Shown: piece by piece, positions 2,317 to 35,300 of the stretch
Position numbering within the stretch: position 1 is the first letter of the stretch
How the letters are laid out: every line of letters starts with the position of its first letter
Assembly: GCA_016165875.1 (NCBI GenBank)
Contig: JABBOT010000015.1
Span: 2,471,132 to 2,535,131, forward strand
Length of the DNA stretch: 64,000 nucleotides
From: Acanthopleura granulata
Lineage: Eukaryota; Mollusca; Polyplacophora; Chitonida; Chitonidae
Direction: 5' to 3'
Position numbers and translations under genes: made by a program
Notes under the pieces: model-generated
The model's database searches: none
What the model saw: only the letters and a program-made list of their open reading frames with translations
Told to the model about the DNA's origin: nothing

Positions 2317-5300
2317 CTGCAAACAAAATGTTACACAATGTCTCCCACATTTCACATTTAATTGTAATACAGGATTTTGGAGCACGTCTGCAATTTACAA
2401 GAAATCTGTCCGAATTTTCAGTTTGCATCTAAAAATTCTGGGCTTTAAACAATGAAAGTCTAATCATTTTAACTAAAAGGGCACATTTTTAAAAACATGT
2501 TTCTTTAAAGGTTGTTAGAACACTATGGGTACCTTTGCTTGGTCTCTACTGGCATACGTGGCTAGGTTTTGAGAGATACTGGAAGGTATCTGAGTTCCTT
2601 TGACAGTACCTTTTCTGGGTCTCTTGCTAATGGTAGCAAACATGGGATTGAGGGATACTGGAAGATATCTGCATTTCACAAAATACCATACCTCTATCGG
2701 GTCTCTTGCCAATGGTAGCAAACATGCAATTGAGAGATACTGGAAGACTGTCACTCAACTGGGTCTCTTGCCAATGGTAGCTAACATGGGTTTGGGAGAT
2801 ACTGGAAGATATCTGCTTTCCACAATAAACCATACCTTTACTGGGTCTTTTGCCAATGGTAGCTAACATGGGTTTGGGAGGGTTGATGTCAGGAGGCACT
2901 TCAGAGATGCTCATCCTCTGGCGATGGTCAAACGCTTGCGAGTGGTCTGAACGGTCAGTCGCCATGGTAGCAGTTCTTGGTCGATATTCTGTAAAAGACC
3001 AATGGTTGGTTTCTTAATGGGTATAAAGACCACAACACATTACACGTCCAGCTGCAGTCAAACGATCGAACGAGTTGGACCAGTTTGGTACCTCACTGGT
3101 CAGGAGTCAGTCAATCATGGCATGATCAAGGCATAAGGCTGTGTTCACAGCGTTAGATTGTCATATCGACTACTTGTAGTAGAATTCAACAAGTGGAATG
3201 AAAATTGTTAAGTCATAAGCCATTGTCTGATGATGTGTTATGTCCAATGTGACAAACCTTGTGAAATAACGCCGGTCCTATTTGACTTGTTGAGTCCGTC
3301 GTGTCGACGATAGCACCACGTGAATGTGGTTTTGAGCCATGGAGTCAGATAGGGTTTAAGCCATGGAGTCAGAGAGGGTTTAACCCATGGAGTCAGATAG
3401 GGCCACTTGCTACAGAACATGCATTACAGCTTGGGTAGACCCTGCTCATTTCTGTGGCTAGACCGTCTATTTCTACTACCAGTATTAGCCATACAGACAT
3501 TACTGGCTCTATTCAGGTCACTTATAATTTTTCAGGGAAGTTTTTCTGTACACAAAAATACAATCATACATGAATATCTGTCAAAGAAAGACTTGTTAAA
3601 AAGTTTAGCGAAATGGGCATGGCCTCGATTTTCAGATTTTGCACAAAAATGGCTGGCACATACTTTGAATTTTTCATCTATACCTATCAATTTATTGTCA
3701 GCTTTTTTGCACACTCAAGCAAGCAAGTTAAGCTGATCCTGATACAAGGGACTATCCCTGTTTTGCACATGATACTGCATCTGTCGTTTAAATAGCAACG
3801 TTCAACTGCAGCATTTTACACCTGTAAATATCCTGTCTGTGTATACAGATATATCAAGTCCTGCAGAAAAAAGTACGACAACTTTATAAACACGCGGCAT
3901 ATGAAAACAGCTTGAAAATAACATGGGGGCTATTTGTTCATCATGCATTCGCTTCTTCGTAAAAACCTGAAACACTCTTATTACACGAAAACCTCATGTG
4001 CTTCTATTTCAAGAACATAACGTCATTCCCGCAGCAAATTTCTGACCAAACAAAACCAAATCCAGGGCATACACTTCAACGTATAACACATGCTGCAAAA
4101 CTAGAAAGACAAATCTGCCTCATGTGAAGACAAACTAAAGTGTAAAAGTAAAACTGGACACAAGCCTTTCCACCATGAAACTTAAGGCGTACCTGCGTGT
4201 CTCAAACTAAGTAAGTACACAGGTCTAATTACATATATACATACATGTACATGTATTTACATGCAATCTAATTAAGATCTGATCATACAACATGTATTAT
4301 ACCAGCCATATATATCTAGAACAGCCAAGTAACAAAAAACAGTACACATTAAAGAAGGATGATACTGGTTGTTGAGAGAGAGCCAATTTATAGTATTCAT
4401 TTACTTACTGGATACTGGGGTTAGAGAGATGATAAATATTTTGCTGGTGGTTAGATTTAATAAGGGAGAGACAAACTGGTAATGTCTCAGAGAAAACCAC
4501 CACCCAATCACAAGTTACTGGACAAATCCCCTGCCATAAAGCCAACCGCAGAAAAAAACTAGTGATCGATCGTGTGCTGGATTTGACCACCAGTCTTTTT
4601 GCCCGACCAATGCTTTGATTTGACCACCAATCTTTTTTCCCGACCAGTGCTATTTAATCAGACGTATTCACAAAATGATAGGGAATATCATAATTTCAGT
4701 TCAGGGCATTTCGTACAATGAATATTCTAACTTAATAAAAAATTATCCAACATTTATGTCATTTATTACAATCAGACTATGAAAAAAACATAAATCATAT
4801 TACGTTTTACATTAAACTGATAAACACACCAAAGAAATAGCTTATTCCAAAGCAACTTTATACTAAGGTACTAAGACATGAGTATTTGCATTTAAACAAA
4901 TATAAAACACAAAGTCTTTATTACAATCCCTGCTAATGTGAAGCCCATTAAACGGAAACAAGCCACTGAAATTAACAATGTGGTCTCCACAAGATGACTT
5001 TGGGGAAAAATAATGTGTATTTATACACAACCCGGTTTGTTCTAAACTATGTTCTGTCAGAGAGGTTTTGCACTGTCTCGAATACTCGCACAGATACCGA
5101 CACATCACAACCTAATGTGATCTCTGTTCAAGCATCTGTTGTGCACAAGCCTTTCTCTCATGTTTATACAGTGTTTTACATTTATTTATTTATTTGATTG
5201 GTGTTTTACGCCGTAATCAAGAATATTTCACTTATATGACAGAGGCCAGCATTATGGTGGGAGGAAACCGGGCAGAGCCTGGGGGAAACTCACGACCATC

Positions 5301-8300
5301 CACAGGTTGCTGGCAGACCTTCCCACCAGTGTTTTACAGAGTATAAAGACATAAATGTCATGTTAGGTATAAGCTTCATTGATTCTGTTAAGAACTCTAA
5401 GGAGCTAGTTAATACTGCTGCTGTTTTGCTCTCACAGTAAAATTGAAGTCAATTTCCGATTGAAAAATAGGTGAAAAGCCAAACATACGGACTAAAAATC
5501 CAAACTGGTACGTAAAGCATATATGCTTGGGAGTTTCTCCAGGAACGGCGAATCAAAAGATTCTTCGTGCGTGAGCACAAACAGCTGCAGTTGTCGAACT
5601 TAAAGTTGCATCTACCTACACAGCCATGCAAAACCTCTCAAGCATCTCAGTGGTTGAAATATCTACCTGTGTATATATGTATACAATTTGTTTTCTAAAG
5701 CCGCCTGCAGTGAAAAGACGATACAATCATGAGAAAAATCATCCAAACAGAAGAGGACTACTCTGACAGTGCATCGGTATCATTCATTCCTGTGACGTTC
5801 TACATCAGTTCTACACAATCCTACCATCAAAGGTATCCAAAAAACAGTCAGGGCAAGAATCTGAAAGAGACGTGGACACATCGGTGCCATAAATTGGTCA
5901 CAAATCACACAGCACAATGTCAACTGCACAACAACAACTGGGATACATTGATGTAAAACAGTGGAATTACCAACAAATCCAAGTCAGGTGTCTGTTTTTT
6001 CACAGACATACCGAGACGGTGCTTTCTTCTGGTGGGCTGGCGTCGGCATATATGCCATTATATTTACCGCAATTCTTCTACTTTTCACCTAATGCACATA
6101 CCCGTCATTGTAACAAGAATACAGTTTCTTTTTTTCTCACAGTTAGTCCATCTCATGAGCAACACATCCATATTTTTACTTTTCACAAAACTGCGTGAGA
6201 AATGCAAAAATTTTGGACATCAGCATTACAAATATCTGTCCTAAAGATCAAAGGAATTGGGGTAGGATGCTGACTCAATGGAATGCTATGCCAAAGACAC
6301 CAGACACGATATCCCACCCACCAACATTATACCCACACCAGACACGATATCCCACCCACCAACATTATACCACACCAGACTGACCAGTACTTGGCCTTTT
6401 CTGTACTTCTGCCATTTGATTTACAACCTCATTTGCCTGATTCCAAACCAAATCGTTCAATAAGACAAACAACAATAACAGGCAGGACCAATTACAATTG
6501 GCACTTAGTCATAGGGGTGAAGGAAACCCAAGAGTGAGGGCTACAGGCCACCCTCTGGGATGTCACTCGTTACTGACAAGCTATTCCACATGTGACGTCC
6601 AGATACACACAACATACTGGGGTGGGTGGGGTGTTCAGTGAAGACTACTGATCTTCAACAAACGTTTTGCAATTTTAGTTTTGCAATGATCGGTGGTTTT
6701 CTTTTTTTTTACCTATCTGTTCATCCCATTGACTGATGCTACCTAGAGATGAAAGTTTTTTATACTACACGAGGCCCAAATCGACTGTCACATTTTCCAA
6801 AAAAATCATTAGAAACGCTATTAGCAAAGGTGAAATGAATGTGGCGCCAGGTGTTATACATGTATGCTTTCTTGTGTCTTTTTGGTCATTTAAATGCAGG
6901 AACTGCTTTCATATCATTTGTATTTATTTCGCTTTTTTTTGGTAGTGCCTTGAGATATTCTACACGTATGTGTCTGAAAACGGCCACAGTTTTTATCATC
7001 CCGATGTATAATTTTCTTTTCAAGTTTTTCTTTTTCAGAAGAAGCTAAATTTGCCTTGACACTTACAGGTACTTAACTTGATCCAGTAACATAAATACTT
7101 TGATTGCTGAGTCAAACTACTTAACTCCGACCTGGCTTAAGTGGAAAAAAATTCATATTTGAGTCAAAACACCACACGATTTGTTGAGTGTCTTGGCCAA
7201 ATATCTCTACCAAAACATTTAACCAGATTAGCTAACAAAACTGGGCAGAGTAAGTTTTTTCTCTTATATTTTGTATATTTCTTGGACTATATCTAGTAAT
7301 GGTGTAAGAGGAAAATGATTTCAAATCTCATTGGCTGTGACCTGCCATGTGACATTCTCTTACTATGTACCTGCCAATGGCTACACTGGAGCTCTGAATT
7401 GACACTAGTCCACTGGAGTGCATAACCCAGAAGGAACACAAGAATGTCCCTTGGACATCCTCGTTCAAGGGCGACATCTGTTAGATTACAGCCAAGGAAG
7501 CAGTATTCTACTGTGCCCTGACACTGGATTACAAATGCATTAATACAGCCATGCAAGTGACAGACAAAATGACAATAAAGACCACAACGAAAATTTAGCT
7601 CTTTCTTATGGTAAAGACTTGGGGCCATCTGTGGCTGAGGAGGTTAGCATGCTAGCAAAGCGTAATGACCCAGGAACCTTTCACTGAAACTGTTACGGTG
7701 ACTTGAAGTCAAGCTCATGCTGGCTTCCTCTTCGGTTGTACACAACTGTGGAACTGTCTGCCGGCAACCTCTCGTCTGCTGGCAGCCTGGCCCCACTCCC
7801 CCAGCCACCTCGGGGAATATTTCACTAATACAATGCTGGCCACCATTATAGTGGGAGGAAACCAGGCACAGCTCTGGTAGCTGGCAGACTTTCTCGCACA
7901 TCTTTTCACAGGCATTCTGAATTGGTTATACCATGCTGACGGAAGAAATGTTATCTCCTTTAAGACCACTTACAAATGCCTTTATTTATCAAAGAGCTCC
8001 ACAATATTCTCATTCCTAAGCTAGCTCTGAGTCACCACCATGTGTATCCTAGCAATTTCAAGACAAGCCTCTTAAACACCTTGGCCAATATATGTTACCC
8101 CGCAAGTAAATTTTGTTCTTTTAACACCATACTCAAGAATCATCCCCTTACATGATGACGGTAAATATATTGTGTGCGCAGGAATGTTCAGCAAGTTGCT
8201 CTGACTACAGGGCTTCAGTGACCTTCATGCATGACTGCACAAAATCACACCATCAACTGCTTACTACCATCAAGGCCCTGGTAACCTTGAAGCAGGCAAA

Positions 8301-11300: not shown

Positions 11301-14300
11301 CCTAAGTCCCTGACCAAATGTCACCAAAATCCAAACCAAAACTCCCCAAAATCTCAACCAAAAGTCTCCAGAATCCCACCCAAAGGCCCTCAGAATCCCC
11401 CACGTCCTCAAAATTCCAACCAAATATCTTCAAAATCTCACCCAAAAGTCTTCAGGATCTCAACCAGAAGCCCTCAGAATACTATTAACCAAATGCTCAG
11501 AGAATTCCAACCAAATGTCCTCAAATATCCACCAATGCGTGAACACTGTTCGGCACTCTCGCCACTCATTTCAATCTGTAGTCTCACTTACTTTGAACTC
11601 TATGAATGGCTGAAGCTGAAGGAATATGGAGGGCCTGTGAGTTACAACAAAGTCCAGGAATTTCCACAACGGCAGGCCGCCTGGTGACAGAAAACAGAAT
11701 GAACTTGATAACTGTAACCATTATTTCCTTACTACTTGCATTTCCTTCCTTTTACTATGATGTGGATATATACACATGCATTTAACAGACTAATTTTTGT
11801 GTGCTCAGACTCGAATATCTCTTGAAAATAAATGTTTCATTCTACGCCTCGTTTATATGACTGATTGATAGCCTGGTTTTTAATATTCAAGAATATTTCA
11901 CTAGTAACACTGAGGTTTATGGAGGACAACAGTGTCGGGAAAATAGCCGCCTTGGCAAGCCATGGGCAACTTCTCCTACATCATGTATTTGAAGTCCATA
12001 CAAGACCAGATATATGTACACATAAACCGCCCTTCATCCATTCAGCTACATCTTAGGTACATAGTAATATTACACTGTAAGTGTACTACACCCTCAGTTA
12101 GTGTAATAATGCTACACCCTAAGTTACCATAGTCACGTTTCACCTTATTTTACTGCACTAGTGCCACACCCTCACTTACTGTAATAATGCTACTCCTTAT
12201 GTGACAACCCTAAACACTCAGCAACTATAGACATGCCACATCCTCAGTGACTGTAGCAATGTTACACCCTCAGTTAGTGTAATAATGCTACTGCTTATGT
12301 AACTGTAGCATCCCTACACACTCAGTAACTACAGACATGGCACACCCTCAGTTACTGTTGTAATGCAACACCATGTTATCATAGCATCCCTACACACTCA
12401 GTAACTGTAGACATGCCGAAACCTCAGTGACTGTTGTAATGCTACACCGTATGTTACCGTAGCATCCCTACACACTCAGCAACTGTAGACATGCCACATC
12501 CTCTGTTACCGTAGTGACACTACACCTTCAGTTACGGTAACACCCTTAGTAACTACAGAAATGCCACACACTCATGTAATATGTGTGGTAATGCTACATC
12601 CTCAATTACTCTCATGAGTTAATTTTGTGATGGTACACACTCAGCAGATGACAGCATGTGTAAGGAGGACAGCTTCAAGTGACCCAGGAGTGAGCTAGTA
12701 GCATGTCCTTGAGAATGTGAATCCTTCCTATGTCTCCACACACAATACTAACTGCCTCCGTGGCCTGGTGGTTAGAGTGTCTGTCTGGAGGTGACAGATT
12801 CGGGATTCATCCTGGATCAGGTCACACCAAAGACTTTAAAAATGGTATTTTCTGCTGCCTCACTTTTTGCTCGGTGCTCAGAGGTGAGAGAAAGGAAACA
12901 GGGCTGGAAGGCCAGGTGTTAGCATAATGTGACTAGGTGGGGTGTCACATCTGGTGTCATCGGCCTGATGCTCAAGTAGCAGCAGCACTTTGGCAGCATG
13001 GATTTGCCCTGCCACAAGCAGACACTGCACATTCTGACTCCTCCTCCGTCATATGGCTGAAAAAGTTTTGAGAGACGACCCCAAGCATTCATGCATACAT
13101 ACCACACACTCCTCCTCTGAAAAATTGTTGAGTACAACGTACGACCCCAAGCATTCATACAAACATACCACACATGCCTTCTCCGTCATATGGCTGAGAA
13201 ATTGTTGAGTACAACCTATGACCCCAAGCACACATACAAACATACCACACACACCTTCTCCATCATATGGCTGGAAAATTGTTGAGTACAACCTATGACC
13301 CCAAGCATACATACAAACATACCACACACACCTTCTCCGTCATATGGCTGGAAAATTGTTGAGTACAACCTATGACCCCAAGCATTCATACAAACATACC
13401 ACACACGCCTTCTCCGTCATATGGCTGGAAAATTGTTGAGTACAACCTATGACCCCAAGCACACATACAAACATACCACACACACCTTCTCCGTCATATG
13501 GCTGGAAAATTGTTGAGTACGACGTACGACCCCAAGCATACATACAAACATACCACACACAATAATTCTCACCATTATTTGAGCCCGCTATTTCATGCAC
13601 ACATTTGGCCACCTTATGCCATTCTGGAGCCAGCTGTTTATCAAAACACACCATCAGGATTTCCAAACCTGAAACAGAAAGTGACACTATATGAAAACTA
13701 GAGGTTGTGCATATAAGTATATGCCCCCTCCTCCTTCCTCTTTTATAGTCTTGAGGAGTATCAAGAAACACACCTACATTACACCTTTGAACAAAGTGGT
13801 CTGATAATGTTTTCCATGGTATTCATTACTGGACAACTACTTGGAGCATACCACTTTCATTAAAGGGGTGGTTGGAAAAATGTCAGGCACCTCTTTGCAG
13901 GCTTGTATTCTATACATTAGGAAATTCAAATCTGTTCACTGCGCCATCCAAGGGAAAATGCTCACCACTAAAATCTGTGAACATCTGTTCAAACTTTGCA
14001 TCAAAGCCGAAGATACTGGCAAACTAATTGCATTTACTTTTGACAGTTACTTACCTGGGCAAGCTGTCAGTAAGACCAGCTCCAGTGGTTCTTCAGGTAG
14101 ACTTTGCCAAAATGGGAGGGAGGCACTGTTACTTACCCAGGTAAGCTGTCTGTAAGACCACCTCAGGTGTGTTCTTCAGGTAGACTTTGTCAGAGTGGGA
14201 AGGAGACACTGTTACTTACCCAGGTAAGCTGTCTGTAAGACCAACTCAGGTGCATTCTTCAGGTACACTTTGTCAGAGTGGGAGGAAGACACTGTTACTT

Positions 14301-17300
14301 ACCCAGGTAAGCTGTCTCTAAGACCAGCTCTGGTGCATTCTTCTGGTACACTTTGTTACAGTGGGAGGAAGACACTGTTACTTACCCAGGTAAGCTGTCT
14401 GTAAGACCAGCTCTGGTGCATTCTTCTGGTACACTTTGTCAGAGTGGGAGGAAGACACTGTTACTTACCCAGGTAAGCTGTCTGTAAGACCAGCTCTGGT
14501 GCATTCTTCTGGTACACTTTGTCAGAGTGGGAGGAAGACACTGTTACTTACCCAGGTAAGCTGTCTGTAAGACCAGCTCAGGTGCATTCTTCAGGTACAC
14601 TTTGTCAGAGTGGGAGATACTGTTAGAGCGGCTGTGTTCGTTAAGCGCCAGGTGATGGCCACTCTTGGTGGACGAGTTGGAATGACTGGGAGGCTTGGCA
14701 GGAGGGTTGAGGGCGTTCAGCAAAATGGTCAGCGCAAACGCAATATCCACTGGCCGGATTTTGGGAGAATCTGACAAAAACAGAGGATACATTAATAATA
14801 AGTATTCAAAACATCCACATTATTCAAAGATCATTCGATGAGACCACGTACTTGTAAATTTATATACATATATGTAGTGTTTACATGTACAGAACTTGAA
14901 AATTTCGTTCGGGCTAAATTCCTCATTTTGCCTGATTCTGAAAGATCCACTGACTGATCTTTAGTAAAATATTTTGAGGTCTGACTGGAAGGCAGGATCA
15001 TATCCTGCTGGTAAAAGGTAAGACCAAGTCCCAAACACAAATTTATTTATGACAAATACTCTTTTTTGGGCAACAGTCCAAAATGACAGTTTTATGTTCT
15101 ACGCTATGTTTTGGCTATGAGACTCACCCCTTCTGCCAGACCCCACCCTCACACAGAGAGGCAGGACAAAGTTGACCAGCATATTGAGGCAGCGCTCCTG
15201 GGTGGGGAACACGGACAGACCCCCGCAGATGTACTCCAGAGAATACTGGTCCTGGGCAAGAACATATAAGGGCATAAAGTTTATTATTATTTATTATTAA
15301 TGACTTTTTCTGTATCTCAATTTTTAGGTATAGTACCGGTAGTATTTGTTAATCAGTTAAGTAATTAAGACAAAAAAGACCAAAAAAAAATGTGATGACA
15401 GGTGCAGGATTTGAACCCGAGTCTCCATCCCTTGAGAAATGTACTCAGAACATGGAATAAAGGAAGAAAGCACTATATGGAGCACTGACCCCTAGCAACT
15501 GCATCTGCATGGCAACCAGCTTGACAACAGCAGAGCAAAACGTGTGAGGAGGGTTAGAGGTCAAGGTTGAGGAGGTGTGATCGCTACGGTGACTGCCCTG
15601 GAGACCTGTCTCTGGGTAGGTTGGGCCCGTGGTTGATAAGATCACGCTCAGTAACACGTTAATCACTGTCTGCAAAACACAAACACAAATGTGTGACACT
15701 CGATGTGGATTACCTCCCTTGTTATGCGAGCTCGCTTACAATCAAGGTTCAAACTGCAAGGTACAGGGTTAAAATTTACGAACTCAAGAAGAAAATCATT
15801 GCTGAAGAATTCATTACATACTTCTATGAATACACAGGTTCTAATTAATCCCCTCCCATTATGTTACTTCAAATATTATCAGCACAGTTTGTCAAGATTC
15901 ACTGAAAACAAAAGGCCAACATCTAGATAAAAGGCGTTAATATTTCACTCTCTCAAGACAACTTAAGACCAATTCACTAATGTATTTATTTGACTGTGTT
16001 TTACACTTTACTCAAAAATAATTCACTTTAATATACTGCGGTGGCCAGCATTATGATGGGAGGAAACTCAACAGAAAAGTTCACACCACAGGTTGTTGTC
16101 AGGCCTTCCTACCTATGAGCACTTCTGACCAAAATAAAAGAATCACTCTACTTAGAGCTTTACGACAGACGTATATAGCCATTTGAAATTAACCGACAAG
16201 AACTGCCCAATCTCCTTGGCTAACCACTTCAGTCAAGCAGCACTAGAAATCAGTAAATCTGTACAGCAGTTGCTTTAAGTTGTCATGTTGAATAAAATTT
16301 TACAGTTTTTAATCCATTTTAAACATAGTGACATTTTGCAGATTTCTCAAATACATCTTTTCCACATTGATTAAGCAGAATGACTGTCAGGTTTGTGGCT
16401 GTGTTCTTCATTTAAGAAAAAAATGAAGGCCTTGTTTTAACAGCAAATCTGTAGTTTTAAGGTATTTTGTCCAACAGAAAACTTATTAAACCTTTATATG
16501 TATACTGATCATATATTTTGTCTGTAATTTGAGGTCTTGTAATTTTATCTTTCTATTTATTTCATTGCTGTTTTGTGCTATACCCCAGAATGTTCTCTTT
16601 CAGGACAGTGGTCAGTTATACATGTGTAGATGGAGGAAACTGTGCCCATGGAAACCCACTGACCTCTGACAAGTTCATACTGACCAACATTCTCGTGTGT
16701 TACCTGGATGGTGGATGACGCCATCATGGATTGGTGGAAAACAAACGGTCTTCAACGAATCTTGGACCGTGTATAACTGCCACACAAGCGCTACTGACTG
16801 CTTATTCTCACCAATGCCCCATAAGCACCAAGAAATGGGCAATCCTAACATTCCCTGTCCACAACTGAGTTTGAGCCCAGGGAATTGAAATCATATTTTT
16901 GACATACCTTTAGGTGTGGGAGATGTGCCACAAATGTGAACTTGCTGAGAGTCGTGTAAAGACCTGTCACAAAAAAGAAACCAAACAATGAATCCAAATT
17001 CAACAAATGAGCAGCTATATGTACATGTACTATAAATAAAGAGAAGGGAGAAGAAAACTGGAAAAGACATCTTTACACACCCTTGCCAGCAAATTCATCT
17101 GTGTCAATTTCATGTCACATGAATCAGTCTGGCATAGTATTTAGGCGTCATTCCTATACAAGCAGTATACAGAAATGCGCGATCTGGGTCAATAATTAGT
17201 ATTTAGGCGTCATTCCTATACCAGCAGTATACAGAAATGCGCGATCTGGGTCAATAATTGCAAGACCAGTTTCCAAAAACCACAAATAACACAAACCCTC

Positions 17301-20300: not shown

Positions 20301-23300
20301 GAGCACGCAGGTCACGAAGAAATCCACGGCGATGTTCAACAGTGCATCGCGTGGCTTTCGGAACTCGTTCCTCATCTCAAGGTCATCTGGGTCGTGCGTG
20401 TACTGTTTCTTGCGTCCTTCCTCCATGTATCTATGCACGATGCTAAAACAGTCAGTCTGAGCTACAGGCACAACACACGAGTCAGTATTCAGCTGGTCCT
20501 CTTAATTTCGACACCAATGCACTACAGACACTGCATTTCATCTTAGGTTTGGCTCTTTTACAGTGACACATGTTCTTTGATTCTGAGTGATTCATGCACA
20601 TTACATGTATATGCATGATCACTTAACATGTTTTCTTTTAATAAAGTTTGATTAACTTCTTTTCAGAAAAACGTATGTGTTGGAATCAAATGTATTACTT
20701 TAAGATCCTTATGTGATTCTAAAGTTGCATATTTACAAGCTACATTTCAGGTGAAATTAAGGAATTCAAACTAAAAACTCTTGACTTCTCATGACCAAGT
20801 CTGAGTATCATTCACGACTACAGCACTGTGCTAAAATGCTAAAATCTGGAGACCATTCTTGCACCTTTACACAATGTAGAGCTGTTAAATGTCAGAAACA
20901 AAATTCCACTAAGGAACATTCGTGCGATGAATCATTCATAACACTATTTACTTCACACAAGTGTTTATTTGATTGGTGTTTTACCCCATACTCAATAATA
21001 TTTCACTTTACATATACGATGGTGGGAGGAAACAGAGCAGACCTTCCCATGTATGACAACAGACAAGGACAACATGACTTGGACAGAACTCACAGACAGC
21101 ATTGGTGAGAGGCTCCTGTGTCATTGTGCTGCGCTAACATGCCACCACCTGTCACTCACCTGGTGTGGGACTCCTCCCTCTCCTCGCAGTACACACTACA
21201 CCCCTGAGGGGAGTGGTTACTGTGATTCTGGAAGTTGTTACCTGTCAATCACTTGGCATGGGACTCCCCTCTCTCCTTGTAGTACACACTACACTACACC
21301 CTGGAGGGGAGTGGTTACTGTGATTCTGGTAGTTGCTACCTGTCACTCACCTGGCGTGGGGCTCCTCCCTCTCTTCGTAGCACACACTACATCTCTGAGG
21401 AGGAGTGGTTACTGTGATTCTGGAAGTTGCTACCTGTCACTCACCTGGCGTGGGGCTCCTCCCTCTCTTCATAGCACAAACTAAACCTCTGAGGAGGAGT
21501 GGTTACTGTGATTCTGGTAGTTGCTACCTGTCACTCACCTGGCGTGGGATCTCCCTCTCTTCATAGCAAACACTACACCTCTGAGGGGAGTGGTTACTAT
21601 GATTCTGGAAGTTGCTACCACTCACCTGGCATGGGACCTCCCTCTCCTTGTAGTACACACTACACCCCTGAGGGGAGTGGTTATTGTGATTCTGGAAGTT
21701 GCTACCTGTCACTCACCTGGCGCGGGGCTCCTCCCTCTCTTCATAACACACACTACACCTCTGATGGGAGTGGTTACTGTGATTCTGGTAGTTGCTACCT
21801 GTCACTCACCTGGCGTGGGGCTCCTCCCTCTCTTCATAGCACACACTACACCCCTGAGCGGAGTGGTTATTGTGATTCTGGAAATTGCTACCTGCCACTC
21901 ACCTGGCGTGGGACCTCCCTCTCCTTGTAGTACACACTACACCCCAGAAGAAGTTACTGGGGGACCTCCGTGGCTCAGTAAGTTAGCGCGCTATTGCAGC
22001 ACAATGACCCGAAGCCTTAAACCAACGCGGTCGCTGTGAGTTCAAGACCAGCTCATGCTGGTTTCCTCTTCGGCCGTATGTTCGAAGGTCTGCCAGCAAC
22101 CTGCGGATGGTCGTGAGTTTCCCCCGGGCTCTGTCCGGTTTCCTCCCACCATAATGCTGGTCGCCGTCATATAAGTGAAATATTCTTGAGTACGGTGTAA
22201 AACACCAATCAAATAAATAAATAAATAAATAAATAAGAAGTTACTGTGATTCTGGAAGTTGCTACCTGTCACTCACCTGGCGTGGGACTCCTCCCTCTCC
22301 TCGTAGTACACACTACACCCCTGGGGGGAGTGGTTGCTGTGATTCTGCATTGTCTTAATGTTGGGGTTCACATTCTCCAGGTGGCGGGAAGGGATGCTCA
22401 TACTCCTAGGGACAAGGATTAGTTGGCAGATTAAACATTTGACTGACAGCTAGAGAGAGTTGGTGACTGGTCAGTTGTTTGAATCGAAGATGATGATACT
22501 CAAACATAAAAGTTCTCACAGCTTTCACAGCTTTTTACAGATTTTTCTTCCCTGTAAGAAGTTCTGAACATTTGAGAGTTCATTCTGAAAGTACACATTT
22601 TAATAATAAATCTAATGATCTGGGGCATGTCTATTGGCAGATCGTGTCTACTGGCAGATCATGTCTGCTGTCTATTGGCAGATGATGTCTATTGGCAGAT
22701 GATGTCTATTGGCAGATCATGTCTGCTGTCTATTGGCAGATCATGTCTATTGGCAGATCGTGTCTATTGGCAGATCATGTCTGCTGGCAGATCATGTCTA
22801 TTTGCAGATCGTGTCTATTGGCAGATCGTGTCTATTGGCAGATCGTGTCTGCTGGCAGATCGTGTCTGTTGGCAGATCGTGTCTATTGGCAGATCGTGTC
22901 TATTGGCAGCTCATGTCTATTGGCAGATCGTGTCTATTGGCAGATCGTGTCTGCTGGCAGATCGTGTCTATTGGCAGATCGTGGCTATTGGCAGCTCATG
23001 TCTATTGGCAGCTCGTGTCTATTGGCAGATCGTGTCTATTGGCAAATTGTGTCTATTGGTAGATCATTATTGGCTGCTTCACGAAATACACCTGTATCTT
23101 CAAGAGGCAAATATTTTTTTCAGATTTCATTTCTGCCATGTTTTAATGAGATTCCATATAGTGCTCGATGTTCCACCTGATGTAAGAGAGTGAGGTTAGC
23201 AGTTGGTCCCCAAACTGATGTGAGGAAACCGGTTTTGTACTGCTTTTCTGACCCGGTCTTTACAAGGTTCATGTACTCATGATCATATCATGATCGTATC

Positions 23301-26300
23301 ATGAATTCCATGCTCCTCCTCTCACTCAGGCTTCTTGCCCTTTTGTCGTAGTCAAATTTCACGCTTTTTCATTTACGGAAAAATTCCATGTCTTTTCCCT
23401 GACCTTTGTCAGGTTTCATGGACTGACACATTGACAGTATGTCAGATTGTTGCTTAATGTCAAATGGATCAAGAAGGAAACCAGAGCTGGGTACAAAAGT
23501 TATCTCGACTATCAAATTACAATATAATCTTTGGGTTGGTAACTCTTCTGTACTTGAACATCAGGCATGTGCCTGATTATGAACATGAAGAACATATGTA
23601 TTCATATTGTTTTTAATAACACAACTGAATTTCTCCACGACCTGTGACACAAATCCATGACTTTGCCACATTTCCATGACTTTTCCAGGACTAGAAGTAG
23701 ATTCAGAATTACATGACATTTCCAGGGTTTTTAATGACCGCAGAAACCCTGTCACTCTCTGAGTTTGCTACTCCTTATCTTCCTCAGAGAGGGTGGTACT
23801 TATTGTCTTCCTCAGTGAAATTTACCCTTTATATCACCTGTTGAGTTTACTATTCACTATTTCACCTTGTGAGTTAGAGATAGCTACCTGTTATCTCACT
23901 GTGTTAGTTAGGTACTGATTATCTCACCTCTGTAAATTTGGTACTCATTACCCCACCTGGCGAGTTAAGTATTTGTTATCCCATGTGGTGAATTACGTAC
24001 TTGTTATCTCACCTGCCGAGTGTGGTACTCAGTACCTCACCTGGTGAGTTTCGTATTCATTATCTCACCCTATGACTCAGGTACTTGTTATCTCACCTGC
24101 TGAGTGCGGTGCTCAGTACCTCACCTGGTGAGTTTGGTATTCATTATCACCCTATGACTCGTACTTGTTATCTCACCTGGTGTAAGATTCACAGGAGGTA
24201 ATCAGGGCTCTCATGGACACTGACAGGTTTGTGATGCTGGTGATTTCCAGTCTGGCCGCCACAGGGCTGTCAACTCGGGCTGTGTGTTTCTTCAGACACT
24301 GTAAGTAGCGCGGCATGACCACTTCCAGAACTGTCTGTGAAGGCAAAACACAAAAATTCCAAACTGTGAAATAAATACACATACATAACACACAATAGCA
24401 GAGCTGTTTTGCCGAATATGCCATCTTTCCTAGTAATGTTATCGTAGTTAACAGACATTTTACATTAGTTAGCCCTATTTAGATAGAAATCCTGTGCATC
24501 AAACCCCCCAACAGCTCCAACTAATAACAAGGTGGGTTAATCTGAAAATGCAAGCCCAGCCCATGCTGGCTTTCTCTCCAGTCACACGTGGGAAGGTCTG
24601 CCAGCAAACTGTGGATGGTCGTGGGTAATTTCTCTGGGTTCCGCCCGGTTTCCTCCCACCATAATGCTGGCCTCCAGTATTGCATAAATTTATTTATTTA
24701 TTTGATAGGTATTTTACACCAAAGTATTCTTGAGTACAGCATAAAGCACCGATGGAATACATTTATTTATAAATTTATAAATTTATCTATTTATTTGATC
24801 GGTGATTCACACTGTACTGAAAAATATTTCACTTCTGCGACAGCATCAGCATTATGGTTGGGGGAAACCGTGCAGTCCTGGGGAGAAACTTCAGGATGCC
24901 GGCAGACCTTCCCATGTACGGCTGGAGGCCAGTACGTGCTGAACTTACACCGGCGTGCTAACCCCCTCGGCCACCGAGGCCCCTCCAATCAAATAACCTA
25001 AAAACACCAGGGGAGAAAACTGTCCTCAAAGGGAAACAAATGTCCTTAAAGTGACAAGAGAAAAGACAACTCACCAGCATCTGGACAGCTCTGGCCGAGT
25101 CTGGAGCATATGCCACCACTGTCACACACATGTTGATCACGTCCAGCATGGTTATGGTGCCGGGGTCATCCTCATAGCAGAAATCCTGAGGTACAACAAA
25201 ATAATTCAGGAATATCACAGATAAGCTTGTCATGCTATCAAAAACATTTCTATCAGATATGCAGCGGTTTAGTGGAGATATCACCAAAGTAATTCATTCC
25301 TCTCCTTTCTTTTATATTTTTGTTTTTTAATTTTTTTTCCATTCAGATTAAACCTCTTCTGATTTTTAAATTTTTTTTTTGTGGTTTACGTGAAAGCTTT
25401 GCATTGTATCCAGGCTGTTTAAAGGAGAAACACTTGCCATCACATCTACTATTTATTTGTCACTTTTGTACACTCAAGCATCTGAACTGTGGAGAATAAT
25501 GAGTCAGACACTCAGAAAAGGGAGGCGTAATGTTTCCCACAATGCCAATGGTAAATATGATATCACACAGAAATTAAACATGATTGGTGCCCAACCGCTA
25601 GCTTGATCCAAAAGACCTTGAACAGGACCTCTAAATCTAACAAGTTCAATCAAATATGAATTTTTTTTTTTTTTAAGTTTGAGAAGCTCAAGAAAGGTCT
25701 TTTCCTGACACCTTCTCAAATGGGGTACAAACCTCGATGAGAAGTGTAAATTGATTTTTTGACAAATTTTTGAATATTTTAGTTTTTAGGCGAATTTTAC
25801 AACAATGTTACATGTGATAAAATCCATTTTTAACAGTTTTCAAATTGAGTGTGATAAAAGATTTTTTTCTTTGGCCTACCCCCCCCCCCATCATAAGGAT
25901 ATCATGTACAATGGGGGAAAACCCCATGCCAGAGAACAGAATCAATGTACAGTATAACAGGTTATACCAAGGCTCGCAGGGGTTTCTCTCCATCAACCAG
26001 GTCCAAGATGTCCAGCTCATCGGGGATATCCTGTTCTAAGTCCAGTAACAACTGAAATAAACAGTCCGGCTGCACCTGTACAAAGACAAAAATGTGAGAC
26101 CTTCTAGTTACCTTTATCAATAGCATGTAAGGTATCTGTTCTGATTTTTTATAACAATCTAAGCTGTGCTTGAAAACTTTACTTTTCTCCAAGCAGATGA
26201 TTCGACAATTCCCCCTTAACGTTGCACGAAATCCTGGAAGCCATAATACAGAAGGACCTGCGCCATGATAAAATTTCCACTCTCAACCATGCAACACTCT

Positions 26301-29300
26301 ACATTTACCACTTGTTCATATTAACCTTGGGCGATATTTTTAAACACACAAAAGTAATCACAATGGTCAAAGCCATACCGAGAGTTATCTTAAACTGTTT
26401 TCTTTTACCCTAAGACAAGATTCACCAGAGATATCAGCACTGAGTCCAATCAGTCTTAGGTCCAGTCAAAAAACTCCGACTACTCAAAATGGTAATGGTT
26501 GACAGTTACAGATCAACGAATTCCGTCTCTATGCAATGGCGATAAACATGAGCTGATCTACACTTTTATTTTGCTACTGTGGCAAATACGCTACATGAAT
26601 CCTGGCGACTATATCACTATATTTACTCATCACGGCATTTGAGCCTGTGACCGATGACAACCATATTATTTTAGCGCTCAACTAAGTACTTTGACTAGAA
26701 GAAATTAACTTAAACATTTTCACTTGATATTCTGTTCGTTATAAGAGAAAGACTTCACCCCTTTCACGGTATACATCAGATAACCTAAGTTCTTGATTTG
26801 CGTACACTTAGTACACACCTTTATAACTTAAAAATTGCCAAAAAAAACTGAAACAAACTAATTTTAATGCACACTTCATCTAATACAACAGCCAACGACT
26901 TTTAATATGAATGGACGACACCCTTGTGGATCCAGTGGAAGGGCCAGTAGGTAACCATGACGACTCACTTTGTTCATGTTCATCATCCCTGTCACATGAC
27001 TGTTCATGTCCAAGATGGGGGCCACGGCACCGAACATCTGAAACAGGAAAGCAGGTGTTAACTTTTGATTTTATCACTGAAGCACTATTTCTTTAACTCT
27101 TATATTTATAGCAAACCATTCTAATGAGCTCACCAAGATAACAATGTGCTTCACATGGTTGAGTACCTGTACACAGAATTTTGTCACCTTTCAACTTATT
27201 TCTTGACTTTCCCACAAAAAATTTCAACTTAAATTTCCCTAAAAGTGGAATCGAATTTCCTAAAACTTAAGGGTGAGTTTACTAAAATTTCTTAAACTTT
27301 TCAAGCGAATTTCCTACAATTTTGATTCAGTTTTCATATTTTGATTCACAAGAGGTTTTCTTGCGTAACGGCCCATTCAGCCCAAGCCAAAGTGACTATT
27401 GTTGCCTTACAATACACAAGTACAATGTTAGCAGTTTGTCCACAAGACGTCACCACAAATGCAGGATTGAACAACGGACTACACAGCTTGGACCCCAGTT
27501 ACCTTATTTGGAAATGGTTCACCACTACAAATAAAGTTTGTCCTGAAATTTTCCTGAATTTTGCAAGTGTAGCACACACATATTTAACTACTTCATGAAA
27601 TCACCCCTTAATTATACCATCACATTGTGCACATGTCAGTCTAACACTTGTATCAGACAGAAGAGAGTGACCCCCATCTGGTTACCATATCAGAGCAAGA
27701 AACCCCATACCATGCTTGGTTGATTGTTTCTGTACTCTCTAAATATTACTGTATTGTTTCTGTACTCTCTAAATATTATTGTTTCTGCACTCTCTAAATA
27801 TTACTGTATTGTTTGTGTACTCTCTAAATATTACTGTACAACTCATCTGTAGAACAATGGGCTTTCTGTGCTGCAAGTAGAACCGCCTACACATACAGGT
27901 GATGGCTTTGGATAGAACTGTATTTGTTTGACTGATTCTTGTACAACTCACCTGCACGTCAAAGGGCTTTCTGTGCAGGAGGTACAACTGTTTACAGACA
28001 AAGGTGATGGTTTTGGACAGAACTGTGTTTGCTTGATTGTTTTCTGTACAACTCACCTGCACGTCAAAGGGCTTTCTGTATAGCAGGTACAACTGTTACA
28101 GATAAAGGTGATGGTTTTGGACAGAACTGTGTTTGCTTGATTTTCACCTTTACAACTCACCTGCAGAACAAAGGGCTTTCTGTGCAGCAGGTAGAACTGC
28201 TTACAGACAAAGGTGATGGCTCTGGACAGCACTGTGTTTGGCTGATTGTTGCTGTACACTCTCAGTAAGGTAGGCACCAGGTACAGGTAGCTGAAATTAG
28301 ATCCCACCTGTATTAAAGTACATGTATGACTGAAATCGAAATATATTCAGAATTTAATATGTAAATAAGTCAGCCTTAGGGTGTCACGCGGCAATGTCCT
28401 TGCAGAAAGAGAATCTGTCCATTTGGAAAATGACACAACTTCAAGACAAAGCAGCAGGTAGTCATGTAAATATTCATGTCCAGCTTAACATATGCAGACT
28501 AATCTTAAACTACTCATTCTTGTTCTAAGCCTTTCACATTCAGCTAAGTGCTTTTATAAAGTTTGGTGGTGATCTTTCGAAGAATTTGAGAAGGACCAAT
28601 AATTTGGAGCCAACAGAAAACTTCGGTATTCAGGATCGAGAAATCAGCAAATAACCACTGCGTCCAAACACGAGACATACATGTATCTGTCTCGCACATG
28701 GACTGTCAGTATTGGTGGTGGATGCCTGCATGAAGCATTTCTGTGCTATTTGGTTGCATTCATTCAAAACATTCAAAACTCATTCAAACATTTGCAGTAA
28801 GCGTTTGAAGTGTTTCCTATTTCCCCTTTTTGGCGAACACATTTTTGAAGTATTCAAAGGCACTGATCAGTATGATCAGGCACACCCCTGGTGGTCTTGT
28901 CCTACTGACCCGTTCCACGAGGACACATCTGAAGAGTTTTCTGAACAGTTACACCTTACAAAGGCACTCACTCATTGGTGGTAATCACATATGTGAAGTG
29001 TTCTTTACTTACCCATAAGTAGCGAACGTGTTTGAAGTGTTTTCTACCCACCTGAGCAAACACATGTTCGGAGTGTTTCCTTTTCAACCTGTTGGTGGCA
29101 AACAATTCACATCTTTTATCCTCACTCGCTGGAGGCAAACACATGTTTAAAGTTTCATTTTTCACGTGTTGGTGGCAAACACGTGTTTTGAAGTGTCCCC
29201 TACTCACCCGTTGGTGGCAAACATATGTTTGAAGTGTCCCCTACTCACCCGTTGGTGGCAAACATATGTTTGAAGTGTCCCCTACTCACCCATTGGTGGC

Positions 29301-32300
29301 AAACATATGTTTGAAGTGTCCCCTACTCACCCGTTGGTGGCAAACATATGTTTGAAGTGTCCCCTACTCACCCGTTGGTGGTAAACATATGTTTGAAGTG
29401 TCCCCTACTCACTCGGTGATGGCAAACACATGTATGAAATATCCCTTACTCACCTGTTGGTGGCAAATATGTGAAGTGTTTGGAGGCATTGATGAGTAGG
29501 CCTAGGCACACCCTCAGGATTGCGGTGTTCTACTCACCCGTTGGTGGCAAACACATGTTTGAAGTGTTTGGAGGCGTTGATCAGTATGCCCAGGCACACT
29601 CTCAAGATGGCCGTGTCCTCGGAGTGTAGAATGATCGTCCCGTTTATCACATTCAAGAAAAGAGGGAGGTCCTGTGATCTGGTCAGTGTGTCCAGCATCG
29701 AAGTGAACAGTGCTCGCATCAGCTGAGGACAGACAGACAAAGCTTTCAGAGCTAAACATGAAGTGGGCATATAAATATAACAGGAAATTCAAAACAGTGT
29801 TTTTCGTCTTTCTGATGTTTTCCTATTATCACTGATTGTATGACCGTTGTGTTTGTAAACAATACATGATTTTCACTCTTGGGAAATCTCAATACCCGAA
29901 AAAATTCCCGTTTTGCTTTTGTCTGATATTTCTGCCTTTATCCCTATACTGGTTGTATGTGTCATTAATATATCTGCACATGTGCAGCTGCCACTCAGAT
30001 GAGGGGTTACCCTGTCTCAACAAGATGTCTGCACAAATGCAGTTGCCACTCAGAAGATGGAGAGAGTATGTCTCTGGAAGCTTGGTCAGGAAATATCATA
30101 AATGTATAAAAATTTTCAAATTGCCACAGTTGTGCTACTCATTGTTAGCTTAGTGGAATTTATTTTACTTGATTGATGTTTTGCACCCTACTCAAGAATA
30201 TTTCACTTACAACGTGAGTAACCAGACAGAGCCCTGGGGAAAACCAAGGTCCTAAATGTATGTTGGTTGAAATTAGTGGAATTCAAAATAATTATTGGAC
30301 ATAATGAATTTCTGAGAGTCTGAGCCTTTGCCTTAAGATTACACAGTCATCTATCATGTCCTTCAGACACCTGTGTCAACCAAGGATTCACCCGGGCAAC
30401 ACATAGGCACCTTTTCGATCCGCAAAGCTGTTAGTTTCACCCTATTTTATATGCAAATCACACATAGGTACACACAAGAAAATTTTATGATTTAGTATTT
30501 TAAACTCCTGACCTCACAAACCATTAAGACAGGTTCAAAGACAGGTCCACAGGTGAAGTCCTGGCCAAGTGGTACCTGACCAGTCTCCTGACAATAAGTG
30601 GGGCATGGGATTCACACATGCTGTACCTTCTCAACATTAGTGAATGACAATGGACATGACATGTAGCAATCTATCAAGTTAGATCAACATACCAATTAAA
30701 AATGTTTATTCAAATGTACTGGTTTTCAAAGAGTGAACAATTTGAAATTTGATTTATTTATTTGATTGATGTTTTACGTCGTACTCAAGAATATTTCACT
30801 TCCACGACAGCGGCTATCATTATGGTGGAAGGAAACCGGGCAGAGCCTGGCAGAAACTCACAATCTTCTGCAGGTGTGCTGGCAGAGCTTCTCACATACA
30901 GCCGGAGAGGGAGCCAGCATGAGCTGGATTTGAACTCACAACAACCGCATTGGTGGGAGGCTTCTAAGTCATTGTGCTGCACTAGCGTGCTAACCAACTG
31001 AGCCACGGAGGTCCCCTGTTGGCAGTTTGCATGTTAGCAGTGAAGATAGCATACCTTGACCCAAACATACTTGTGTAATGTGTCCATGCCAAACAGCTCC
31101 TGTAGAGAACACAGAAAATTCATACTTCACATCTTTACAGTTGGGTAAAAAAACACTTAGGCTGTTGTGTTATTTTATATTTTGTAACGCATCAAACGCA
31201 TCACTGCAGGGTGTCTTTTTCGTTTACTCATTTTTTTACTCTTTCATACTTTAAATGTGACCTGTGATAATATGTTAATGCAAACAGGATTCCCAACCTT
31301 TAAAGAAAAACATATTTCAAGGACTTTCAAAAACTTAATATAACCCAAATTTTTTCCAGTTCCTTGGATACAGACCATTCAGATTAAATAATCAACAGAT
31401 TTTATTTCGTTACTTTTTTATCAATACATTTCATATAACACAATGTAATATGATATTTTACCAACAATTTACATGTAGTACTTTCTAGGTCTTGAAAAAA
31501 ACTTTTAAACAACATTTCAGCATTTCATGGATTTCAAGGTCAACCGTACCAAAAATTAAGCAAAGATGTAGTTCACACATGAATGGCGAGAAAGAAAAAT
31601 ACCTTTCCCCAATGTCCATCATACAGTCCAAACTCCGCCTCTAATGCCTTTCTGGGAAACGACGGCAGCTTCATGAATTCTTCCAGCAAGAATGCCACAT
31701 GGGTCTGAATCTGTGAAAAAAAACAACGGAAGCAAAAACCCAAATTACAGCCAAAAATTAATGCAGCATTTGATGGGTGGTGTTTCCCACATTAAAGATC
31801 AAACGGTATTTCAGTATTCCATGATATATGAGTATGTGAAAAGTATTCCATGATACACGAGTATGTGAAAAAAATTCATGAGACATGAGTATGTGAAAAG
31901 TATTCCATGATACAGGAGTATGTGAAAAGTATTCCATGATATGTGAGTATGTGAAAAGGACAGTTTAAATTGTGAATGTCTTCTTGTTTTTAATGTCATG
32001 ATACCAATAAAATATTTCACTTGGATGGATGATAGCATCATTTCCTTCTTTATTTCTCACTGCTTTTGAATACACTTTTAATTTGGCGTGGCAGATCACA
32101 AAATATATTCTAGGTCGGCATGTTGTTGATATATTTATTTATTTGATTGGTGTTTTATGCCATACTCAAGAATATTTCACTGATATGACAGCGGCCAGCA
32201 TAATGGTGGGAGGAAACCGGCCAGAGCTCAGGGGAAACCTATGATCATCTGCAGGTTACCGGCAGACCTTCCAATGTACAACTGGACAGGAAGCCAGAAA

Positions 32301-35300
32301 CATAATCTCGTATTTCACCAACGTCTAAAAATGTTCAGTAGTTTAATTGTATAGATTTAATTGATATAGCTATTAAATTCACCTTGAAACTCGTATTACA
32401 TGAACACCTAATTTCCACTTGGGGTTAGGGAGCCCTTTTTTGTGGTTCACATTGACCACCGAGCCACGGCTGATAATCCCACACCTGTGTGTAAGGCTTA
32501 CTTGGTGTGCTGGGGTGCTCTGCAAGATCTGGGTGGTGAACACACCTGTGTGTAAAGCTTACCTGGTGTGCTGGGGTGCTCTGCAAGATCTGGGTGGTGA
32601 ACACACCTGTGTGTAAAGCTTACCTGGTGTGCTGGGGTGCTCTGCAAGATCTGGGTGGTGAACACACCTGTGTGTAAAGCTTACCTGGTGTGCTGGGGTG
32701 CTCTGCAAGATCTGGGTGGTGAACACACCTGTGTGTAAGGCTTACCTGGTGTGCTGGGGTGCTCTGCAAGATCTGGGTGGTGAACACACCTGTGTGTAAG
32801 GCTTACCTGGTGTGCTGGGGTGCTCTGCAAGATCTGGGTGGTGAACACACCTGTGTGTAAAGCTTACCTGGTGTGCTGGGGTGCTCTGCAAGATCTGGGT
32901 GGTGAACACACCTGTGTGTAAAGCTTACCTGGTGTGCTGGGGTGCTCTGCAAGATCTGGGTGGTGAACACACCTGTGTGTAAAGCTTACCTGGTGTGCTG
33001 GGGTGCTCTGCAAGATCTGGGTGGTGAACACACCTGTGTGTAAAGCTTACCTGGTGTGCTGGGGTGCTCTGCAAGATCTGGGTGGTGAACACACCTGTGT
33101 GTAAAGCTTGCCTGGTGTGCTGGGGTGCTCTGCAAGATCTGGGTGGTGAACACACCTGTGTGTAAAGCTTACCTGGTGTGCTGGGGTGCTCTGCAAGATC
33201 TGGGTGGTGAACACACCTGTGTGTAAAGCTTACCTGGTGTGCCGGGGTGCTCTGCAAGATCTGGGTGGTGAACACACCTGTGTGTAAAGCTTACCTGGTG
33301 TGCCGGGGTGCTCTGCAAGATCTGGGTGGTGAACACACCTGTGTGTAAAGCTTACCTGGTGTGCTGGGGTGCTCTGCAAGATCTGGGTGGTGAACACACC
33401 TGTGTGTAAAGCTTACCTGGTGTGCTGTAAAGCTGGTGAACACACCTGGTGTGCTGGGGTGCTCTGCAAGATCTGGGTGGTGAACACACCTGTGTGTAAA
33501 GCTTACCTGGTGTGCTGGGGTGCTCTGCAAGATCTGGGTGGTGAACACACCTGTGTGTAAGGCTTACCTGGTGTGCTGGGGTGCTCTGCAAGATCTGGGT
33601 GGTGAACACACCTGTGTGTAAGGCTTACCTGGTGTGCTGGGGTGCTCTGCAAGATCTGGGTGGTGAACACACCTGTGTGTAAAGCTTACCTGGTGTGCTG
33701 GGGTGCTCTGCAAGATCTGGGTGGTGAACACACCTGTATGTAAAGCTTACCTGGTGTGCTGGGGTGCTCTGCAAGATCTGGGTGGTGAACACACCTGTGT
33801 GTAAAGCTTACCTGGTGTGCTGGGGTGCTCTGCAAGATCTGGGTGGTGAACACACCTGTGTGTAAGGCTTACCTGGTGTGCCGGGGTGCTCTGCAAGATC
33901 TGGGTGGTGAACACACCTGTGTGTAAAGCTTACCTGGTGTGCCGGGGTGCTCTGCAAGATCTGGGTGGTGAACACACCTGTGTGTAAAGCTTACCTGGTG
34001 TGCTGGGGTGCTCTGCAAGATCTGGGTGGTGAACATCACTTTGCCTGTCTCCACAAACTTCAAGGTAAAAGCCTACAGAAAATACAGGTAAACAATGTGT
34101 ACTTACATACATGTAGAACATGTCTTTGGATTATTTGTACCATTTGTTGTTGTGAATGAGGATATAAAGTCATGGTGTGCTGTCCAGTGCGAAAACATTA
34201 TTTCCTAAACACACCTGAATAAGTTTTGTGTCATAAGTAATAATTTCCCAGCAAAGACTACTGACTGGTTGTCATTGTCATCAAAACGCCAGGTTTCTAT
34301 CACCTGCACTTACTGCCTTTCCAACATTTGGTGTGAAATTTTCCAAACTTCCAAAATTTTCTTCCTTCCAGTTTTTAATCACGACACATCTACTTGTAGC
34401 AAGGAAACACCTATGGCTCCAGGACTTACTTCAATTCCACCTCACACTTACGCAAAATTCATTATATAAAAAAACCTCAAAATTCTTCTTAATAAAGTCT
34501 TACCACAGACAAAAATCAGAGTTTTATCAGGTCTATACATCTACTTCATCCAGTGTTGGATCCAGTGTTTTTCTAGAGTCCTTATTAGATTTTGTGATAT
34601 TTTCTCCTCAAGTGCAACGAGGTCAAAGTGGATCAAAATCTCTGCACATGTACAACCAAATGCGACATGTGTCAGATCCACTCACATGTTCTTGATGCAA
34701 ACACACTGACCTCACGCTCTTGAAACCACCTTTGGTCTGCCTGTTAATTAGCAGCTATATCGTTAACCATGTCTTGAAGATTATTCAGACGTATTTTGAA
34801 GCACCAATTCAAAACAAAAAATACATTTGGTTTTTAAAATTTTTGCCCGATTGAGTTTTTAGAAGAGTCCTTTTAACGGACACACCAAGACCCTGTATTC
34901 ATCCCTGTGATGTTCCTGGATGCTAACTTCCTTTCAACAGAAACACTGGCTGACCTGCTTCTGTAAGGCCTTTGAGGCATCCTCCGGGTTCATGTGCACC
35001 AGACTCAGCTGAGGGTAAAAGTTACGACGGAAATAGTAGAAGTCTCTGACATACGAGTTCATGTTGTGCATCTGATCTGAAAACAACACATACAACGATG
35101 AGTATGAAATGTCGACAGGTTTAATGCTGGGGAAATCTCTGTTGAAGTGTACTAACGTTAAACATGAGACTTTTTGTCCCTTTTTTTTTTTTTACTCAAC
35201 GTTATTGCAATTATTGGTGGGTGAACAAAAGAGAGAAGAACATCTTGCGTGCTTTCAATGTACTTGAATAACAGTGTCAGATTAATTCCCAATCACATGT

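Follow-up and report, generated by a model that had tools for sequence, protein, structure and literature searches.

Why are the ends of exons, together with their own 5′ splice sites, tandemly amplified at seven separate exons of a single gene? This question is raised by a stretch of 64,000 nucleotides from the chiton Acanthopleura granulata (GenBank assembly GCA_016165875.1, contig JABBOT010000015.1, positions 2,471,132 to 2,535,131), which is referred to below as the window. The minus strand of the window encodes the central and C-terminal part of a molluscan ortholog of UNC80, an auxiliary subunit of the NALCN sodium leak channel. At UNC80 exons 27, 30, 31, 35, 36, 44 and 48, the first copy of a tandem array is the exon end with its donor (the 5′ splice site), and the array extends from there downstream into the intron. 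The presented results suggest that tandem duplication is drawn to strong splice sites, or is at least survived by them.

The UNC80 model comprises 49 exons, which join into one continuous frame of 2251 residues with zero stops. A 36-base probe was taken at each donor (24 exon and 12 intron bases) and aligned to the following intron, and acceptors were compared with the preceding intron. The donors of exons 27, 30, 31, 35, 36, 44 and 48 scored 36, 30, 28, 16, 34, 36 and 24, respectively, whereas the remaining 41 of the 48 donors scored at most 13 (the donor of exon 16, whose edge is one base short in this test, scored 10) and shuffled introns reached up to 14. This confirms the amplification at seven exons that the original prediction, made from the letters of the DNA, had claimed. 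None of the 48 UNC80 acceptors was arrayed, all of them scoring at most 14 against the preceding intron, and the difference between 7/48 donors and 0/48 acceptors was significant (one-sided p = 0.006). The exons and their arrays are the following:

33995..34072, minus strand: UNC80 exon 27 (AFTLKFVETGKVMFTTQILQSTPAHQ), the final 41 bases of which form the first copy of array A27
32482..34035, minus strand: array A27, 26 copies of a 61-bp unit (41 exon and 20 intron bases)
29538..29722, minus strand: UNC80 exon 30, which ends ...HFKHVFATN
28823..29567, minus strand: array B30, 16 whole or partial copies of a unit of ~41 bp (30 exon and ~11 intron bases)
28161..28290, minus strand: UNC80 exon 31 (YLYLVPTLLRVYSNNQPNTVLSRAITFVCKQFYLLHRKPFVLQ)
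27834..28252, minus strand: array C31, 4 copies of a 105-bp unit (92 exon and 13 intron bases), 82-88% identical
24177..24334, minus strand: UNC80 exon 35
23885..24185, minus strand: array D35, 7 copies of a unit of ~28 bp (7-9 exon bases and the donor), with an 84-bp higher-order period
22277..22405, minus strand: UNC80 exon 36 (...NHSPQGCSVYYEEREESHA)
21147..22349, minus strand: array E36, 11 whole or partial copies of a 93-bp unit (73 exon and 20 intron bases), 86-95% identical
21960..22234, minus strand: SINE-like insertion in the second copy of array E36, with the 12-base direct repeat CAGTAACTTCTT on either side (by reading)
14552..14770, minus strand: UNC80 exon 44
14043..14616, minus strand: array F44, 7 copies of an 83-bp unit (65 exon and 18 intron bases)
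2836..2988, minus strand: UNC80 exon 48 (...PMLATIGKRPSK)
2607..2897, minus strand: array G48, 4 irregular copies with 86-98% identity over aligned lengths of 41-92 bp

The copy numbers (26, 16, 4, 7, 11, 7 and 4) include the exon's own end and partial copies. The measured unit lengths of 61, 41, 105, about 28, 93 and 83 bp, and the irregular 60-95 at exon 48, nearly match those that had been predicted. The uniform build ascribed to the units, namely exon end, donor and intron start, holds in general, but exon 35 contributes only 7-9 bases, E36 is split by the insertion, and one copy of G48 is without a donor, the match of its second copy ending before it. The arrays differ in divergence, and therefore probably in age. 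In A27 (donor CAG|GTAAGC), 24 of the 26 copies are 97-100% identical to the exon copy. The copies of F44 are 83-99% identical to theirs, and in B30 five middle copies reach 95-97% while the rest, diverged at both ends, mostly show 74-89%. Array E36 predates the SINE-like element, because the latter splits the second copy and carries a flanking direct repeat. The high identity within A27 is also the point at which an assembly or sequencing artefact might be suspected, since the copy number of so uniform an array could be misassembled. As an explanation for the pattern, an artefact has a negligible probability: in most other arrays there are copies with a divergence of 10-25%, one array has an insertion with a target-site-like repeat, and seven units that look unrelated in sequence (by reading, not by pairwise test) recur at one kind of boundary.

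A dispersed repeat or mobile unit was also considered as the source and was rejected, as a 501-base probe from the exon 27 array gave five matches in 606 Mb, with the best candidates scored only, and all five lay in its own array. Stretches resembling the SINE-like element of E36 recur in the window, e.g. near 32220, 43574 and 61520 (by reading).

The strength of the splice site distinguishes the arrayed donors from the others. Donors were scored with a generic metazoan matrix. The array donors had a mean of 11.0 bits, compared with 7.5 bits in other UNC80 donors (p = 0.0005; exon 16 was omitted, its edge being one base short, and the donor of exon 49, whose intron leaves the window, was counted among the others). 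For comparison, eight 10-kb stretches of dynein heavy chain genes were analysed, in which 14 of 122 predicted exons were dropped and the 108 supported by homology were used, yielding 103 donors and 103 acceptors (the model in stretch L028 retains one stop). One dynein donor, that of exon 4 in L030, is clearly arrayed, with a unit of about 35-40 bp (by reading). In UNC80 and the dyneins together, 8 of 151 donors are arrayed; at the same threshold stands 1 of 151 acceptors, that of exon 5 in L027, whose score of 16 comes from a single short match and not from an array. A strength of at least 11 bits was found in six of the eight array donors and in 15 of the 143 others (p = 8.5e-5), so that arrays occur at 6/21 strong donors and at 2/130 weaker ones. 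Base composition was examined as another explanation and was set aside: exon ends contain 52% GC where arrays follow and 50% elsewhere, and the first 60 intron bases 44% and 40%, respectively, which is little difference.

Such a pattern might arise even if duplication struck everywhere alike. Duplications that span acceptors or lie within exons would be purged, while donor-spanning ones would be neutral and remain visible. This explanation covers the donor-only polarity, the lack of conservation among copies and, provided that a strong first donor is needed to win, the bias towards strong donors. It also fits the abundance of arrays in the window overall, where 28 of them (period at least 10, score at least 50) occupy 15% of the 64 kb. 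However, a filter can at most cut donors to the neutral level. In a placement simulation with 24 random seeds, which took the observed unit lengths capped at 110 and rejected acceptor-spanning and wholly exonic seeds, the expectation was 1.10 donor-spanning seeds. Seven were reached in 0 of 4000 runs and the maximum was six, a value equal to the six of the seven arrays, without G48, that the repeat list behind the simulation contains. The filter alone is therefore insufficient, because seven donor-spanning arrays stand against 1.10 expected with the filter already applied, and we regard it as a rather unlikely sole cause. The comparison of donor junctions with random positions, proposed together with the original prediction, thus came out in its favour within UNC80.

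The reading that we put forward tentatively, as somewhat short of probable, is exon stuttering at strong 5′ splice sites, in which a duplication bias at strong donors acts together with a filter imposed by splicing. A segment that runs from the exon end across the exon|GT junction into the first bases of the intron would be tandemly duplicated by slippage or template switching, with a bias to the exon-to-intron boundary of strong donors. The array may then grow and shrink by unequal exchange or further slippage; in B30, it is the middle copies that are most alike. The original donor, which lies nearest to the exon and is transcribed first, would still be used if it is strong, leaving the protein unchanged, and the copies would decay neutrally. 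A duplication on the acceptor side would place a decoy acceptor before the true one, the exon would gain intron sequence and the variant would probably be purged. Purging of this kind would account for the observed donor-only pattern, and the filter argument as a whole for the polarity, the non-conservation of copies and the bias to strong donors. A duplication bias is favoured in addition, because the filter leaves the excess over purely intronic arrays unexplained. It is possible, although doubtful, that a strong 5′ splice site is in itself a hot spot of tandem duplication, with the splicing or transcription machinery causing DNA to be re-copied locally where exon meets intron. U1 binding, polymerase pausing and R-loops are conjectural candidates for the cause of such a bias. 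If this is true, splice-site strength would predict where a genome grows new minisatellites.

A bias of this kind may also be visible outside the window. The whole assembly of 606.5 Mb was scanned for three copies of CAGGTRAGT separated by gaps of 20-50 bases, with the reversed motif as control; the counts are made on the motif alone. Triples of the donor motif gave 426 matches and the reversed motif 51 (8.4-fold), long arrays being counted repeatedly, whereas single sites numbered 17,246 and 7,381 (2.3-fold). A 3.6-fold excess in tandem therefore remains after normalisation, which also speaks against a filter as the only cause. Triples of the acceptor motif TTYTYNCAGG, which is of similar information, showed no comparable excess at equal gaps (107 matches and 94 reversed, as raw counts of triples). 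The claim of recurrent, independent duplication is supported, as are a donor bias over acceptors within UNC80 and a genome-wide tandem excess of the donor motif. Among the matches listed, which extend into contig C2, donor triples form 11 loci on contig C1 alone, compared with 2.8 expected there (p = 1.6e-4). Triples of the reversed motif lie at 15 loci genome-wide, one of them on C1, when the listed places are grouped. Since the excess was measured on the motif alone, it would also suit an instability of the motif itself, in which CAGGTRAGT and its surroundings are recombinogenic or prone to slippage, as the core of a minisatellite is, independently of any role in splicing. The UNC80 arrays, however, include real exon ends with other donors (TGG|GTAAGT at exon 44, AAG|GTATGG at exon 48 and CGG|GTGAGT at exon 30), and we consider the instability of the motif an unlikely explanation, decidedly so. 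Outside the seven arrays, the exact 9-mer CAGGTRAGT occurs nowhere in the window on either strand. A donor-motif array with about 60 copies of a 42-bp unit was noted at G000:C2:1573011-1575541.

Several points weigh against a general duplication bias at strong donors. Besides the raw acceptor figures and the repeated counting of long arrays, of which a single one on contig C2 supplies about 60 triple matches, the exact 9-mer could be unstable for causes other than splicing. The strength test draws seven of its eight array donors from UNC80, and arrayed donors are far rarer in the dynein stretches (1/103) than in UNC80 (7/48; p = 0.001); the abundance of arrays in UNC80 is exceptional relative to the dyneins. 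Elsewhere, in 190 kb, 34 arrays were found, a small sample in which 2 contain a donor of at least 9 bits, as do 2 of the reversed controls, while in the window such donors are present in 9 of the 28 arrays and in 0 reversed controls. Finally, two dynein intronic arrays stop 1 base (L033 1140-1275, minus-strand coordinates) and 8 bases (L032 6307-6353) before the acceptor, with the exon excluded, and the 3′ ends of introns are therefore not free of arrays. Among the 27 purely intronic arrays of UNC80 and the dyneins, 3 end within 100 bases of an acceptor, with 3.3 expected, whereas 8, among them the body of array B30, start within 100 bases of a donor, compared with an expectation of 3.3 (p = 0.008). 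In the window, intronic arrays that crowd the 5′ end of the intron include those at 13117-13561, 52279-52355, 56537-56646 and 48714-49318. A further case lies about 39 kb from the window (L017 1144-1321), in the gene of a rhodopsin-type receptor, where an exon end and its donor are tandemly duplicated in about two copies of a 91-bp unit. The Pfam family 7tm_1 is matched by the upstream exon with E 9.5e-6, which is below the curated cut-off, and by the downstream exon with E 3.5e-21. This case stands outside the unbiased count, because the strong donor in its unit brought it to light.

The copies could also serve a function. The additional donors might strengthen exon definition or offer alternative 3′ exon ends, or bound U1 might shield the intron from premature polyadenylation. 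There are precedents for a use of repeated splice sites. In human IFI6 (6-16), an intronic minisatellite supplies multiple splice donors and downstream repeat units are cited as used (Turri et al., 1995, via PMC4526556), and dual-specific sites have been described in tandem repeats (PMC10809524). The resemblance is limited in both cases. IFI6, like UNC80, has a tandem repeat at an exon end with a splice donor in its units, but it is one locus whose downstream donors are reported as used, whereas UNC80 has seven unrelated arrays with units of 28-105 bp. In dual-specific sites of the UBC type, AG|GT is likewise repeated in tandem, but there the repeat is coding and its sites are spliced, while the UNC80 copies are intronic (PMC10809524). 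In six arrays, mismatching cells amounted to 30/594 in the donor 9-mer and to 213/3470 in the rest of the unit (p = 0.35), in a test that is weak because copies are not independent. The donors of the copies have thus been conserved no more than the other bases of the unit, which suggests that the arrays are tolerated and not used. Among the six regular unit lengths (61, 41, 105, 28, 93 and 83), four are not divisible by three and would shift the frame, and an extension of exon 36 hits an immediate stop (GCC AGG TGA; by reading). A function of the copies is therefore improbable. Of the two kinds of selection that had been proposed at the outset, the same result fits toleration and gives no support to favouring.

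The original prediction had also linked the arrays to the gain of introns. In the corresponding model, an AGGT-bearing segment is duplicated inside an exon and thereby creates a new intron (PMC3443670; also PMC4974935). The UNC80 units contain AG|GT or GG|GT, which is near to the element of this model, and tandem duplication of a segment with a potential splice site is common to both (PMC3443670). All seven arrays, however, begin at the donor of an existing intron and extend within it, and no exon is split. A link to intron gain is not supported, because each array lengthens an intron already present instead of making a new one, whereas the model, as described in PMC3443670, requires duplication inside an exon. 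We consider arrays as a route to intron gain highly improbable.

The closest known counterpart is the 'sequence stuttering' that Hron et al. (2026; PMC12954441) reported from introns on the dot chromosomes of the chicken, which consists of local imperfect tandem expansions. According to that report, parts of exons are expanded together with the neighbouring donor or acceptor in 236 introns of 115 genes, 190 of the 236 on dot chromosomes, exon copies are found in 3.4% of dot-chromosome introns, and most copied sources reach the exon border. Length variation between individuals is one of the three main features described, and GC content, quadruplexes or recombination are proposed as the cause. 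Hron et al. did not find stuttering in other vertebrates, except in GC-rich genes of the gerbil (PMC12954441). The UNC80 window shares with the chicken case the imperfect intronic repeats whose units measure tens to hundreds of bases, represented here by 28 arrays, and the copying of the adjoining exon part and splice site with the coding sequence left intact. The settings are different: chicken stuttering belongs to tiny GC-rich chromosomes of birds, while UNC80 lies in a mollusc, at 41% GC and on a 14.5-Mb contig. In the chicken, either the donor or the acceptor side is copied, and the expansion section and discussion of the report hold no tally of the two; in UNC80, only donor-side arrays are found. 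One chicken example, the repeat in intron 18 of PHF8, derives partly from exon 19 and therefore presumably has an acceptor-side source (PMC12954441). The share of introns concerned also differs, 3.4% of those on dot chromosomes compared with 7/48 in one gene, where it is linked to donor strength. The UNC80 pattern appears to work like exon stuttering and would best be filed as a variant of it. Relative to stuttering, three things are new: the restriction to the donor side, the association with donor strength and the genome-wide excess of the motif. In molluscs, no donor-spanning arrays are described in the titles and abstract beginnings among the matches listed from the open-licence literature.

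In 2026, stuttering was described as characteristic of the dot chromosomes of birds, and a similar case in an AT-rich mollusc gene would point to a more general phenomenon. The polarity and the link to donor strength may provide a testable clue to its cause. The arrays are, moreover, natural experiments in splice-site choice, as exon 27 confronts 25 additional copies of its own donor region. They are also a concern for annotation, because gene finders put false exons in such arrays; the exon finder used here placed them in the arrays of exons 27, 30, 31, 36 and 44.

The host gene was modelled with this small exon finder, used with and without homology to relatives, and doubtful edges were settled by reading; the exon numbering is that of the original prediction. 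The first exons, which lie upstream of the window, are not visible because C15:2535132-2615131 reads all N (C15 being the contig of the window), as does stretch L024. The GC content of the window is 0.407 and C15 is 14.45 Mb long. The assignment to UNC80 is supported by PF19424 (E = 0) and PF20262 (E 8e-82) in a 1187-residue part of the model and by matches of a 613-residue partial query to solved UNC80 chains (E 5e-55). The UNC80 proteins of six molluscs show 47-54% identity to a 1835-residue model, with 36-56% of the query covered. In a tree of 14 UNC80 proteins, the protein of the window takes a position likely for a chiton or another early mollusc lineage: it branches outside three gastropods, two bivalves and a cuttlefish, and those six are grouped at 96/95 support.

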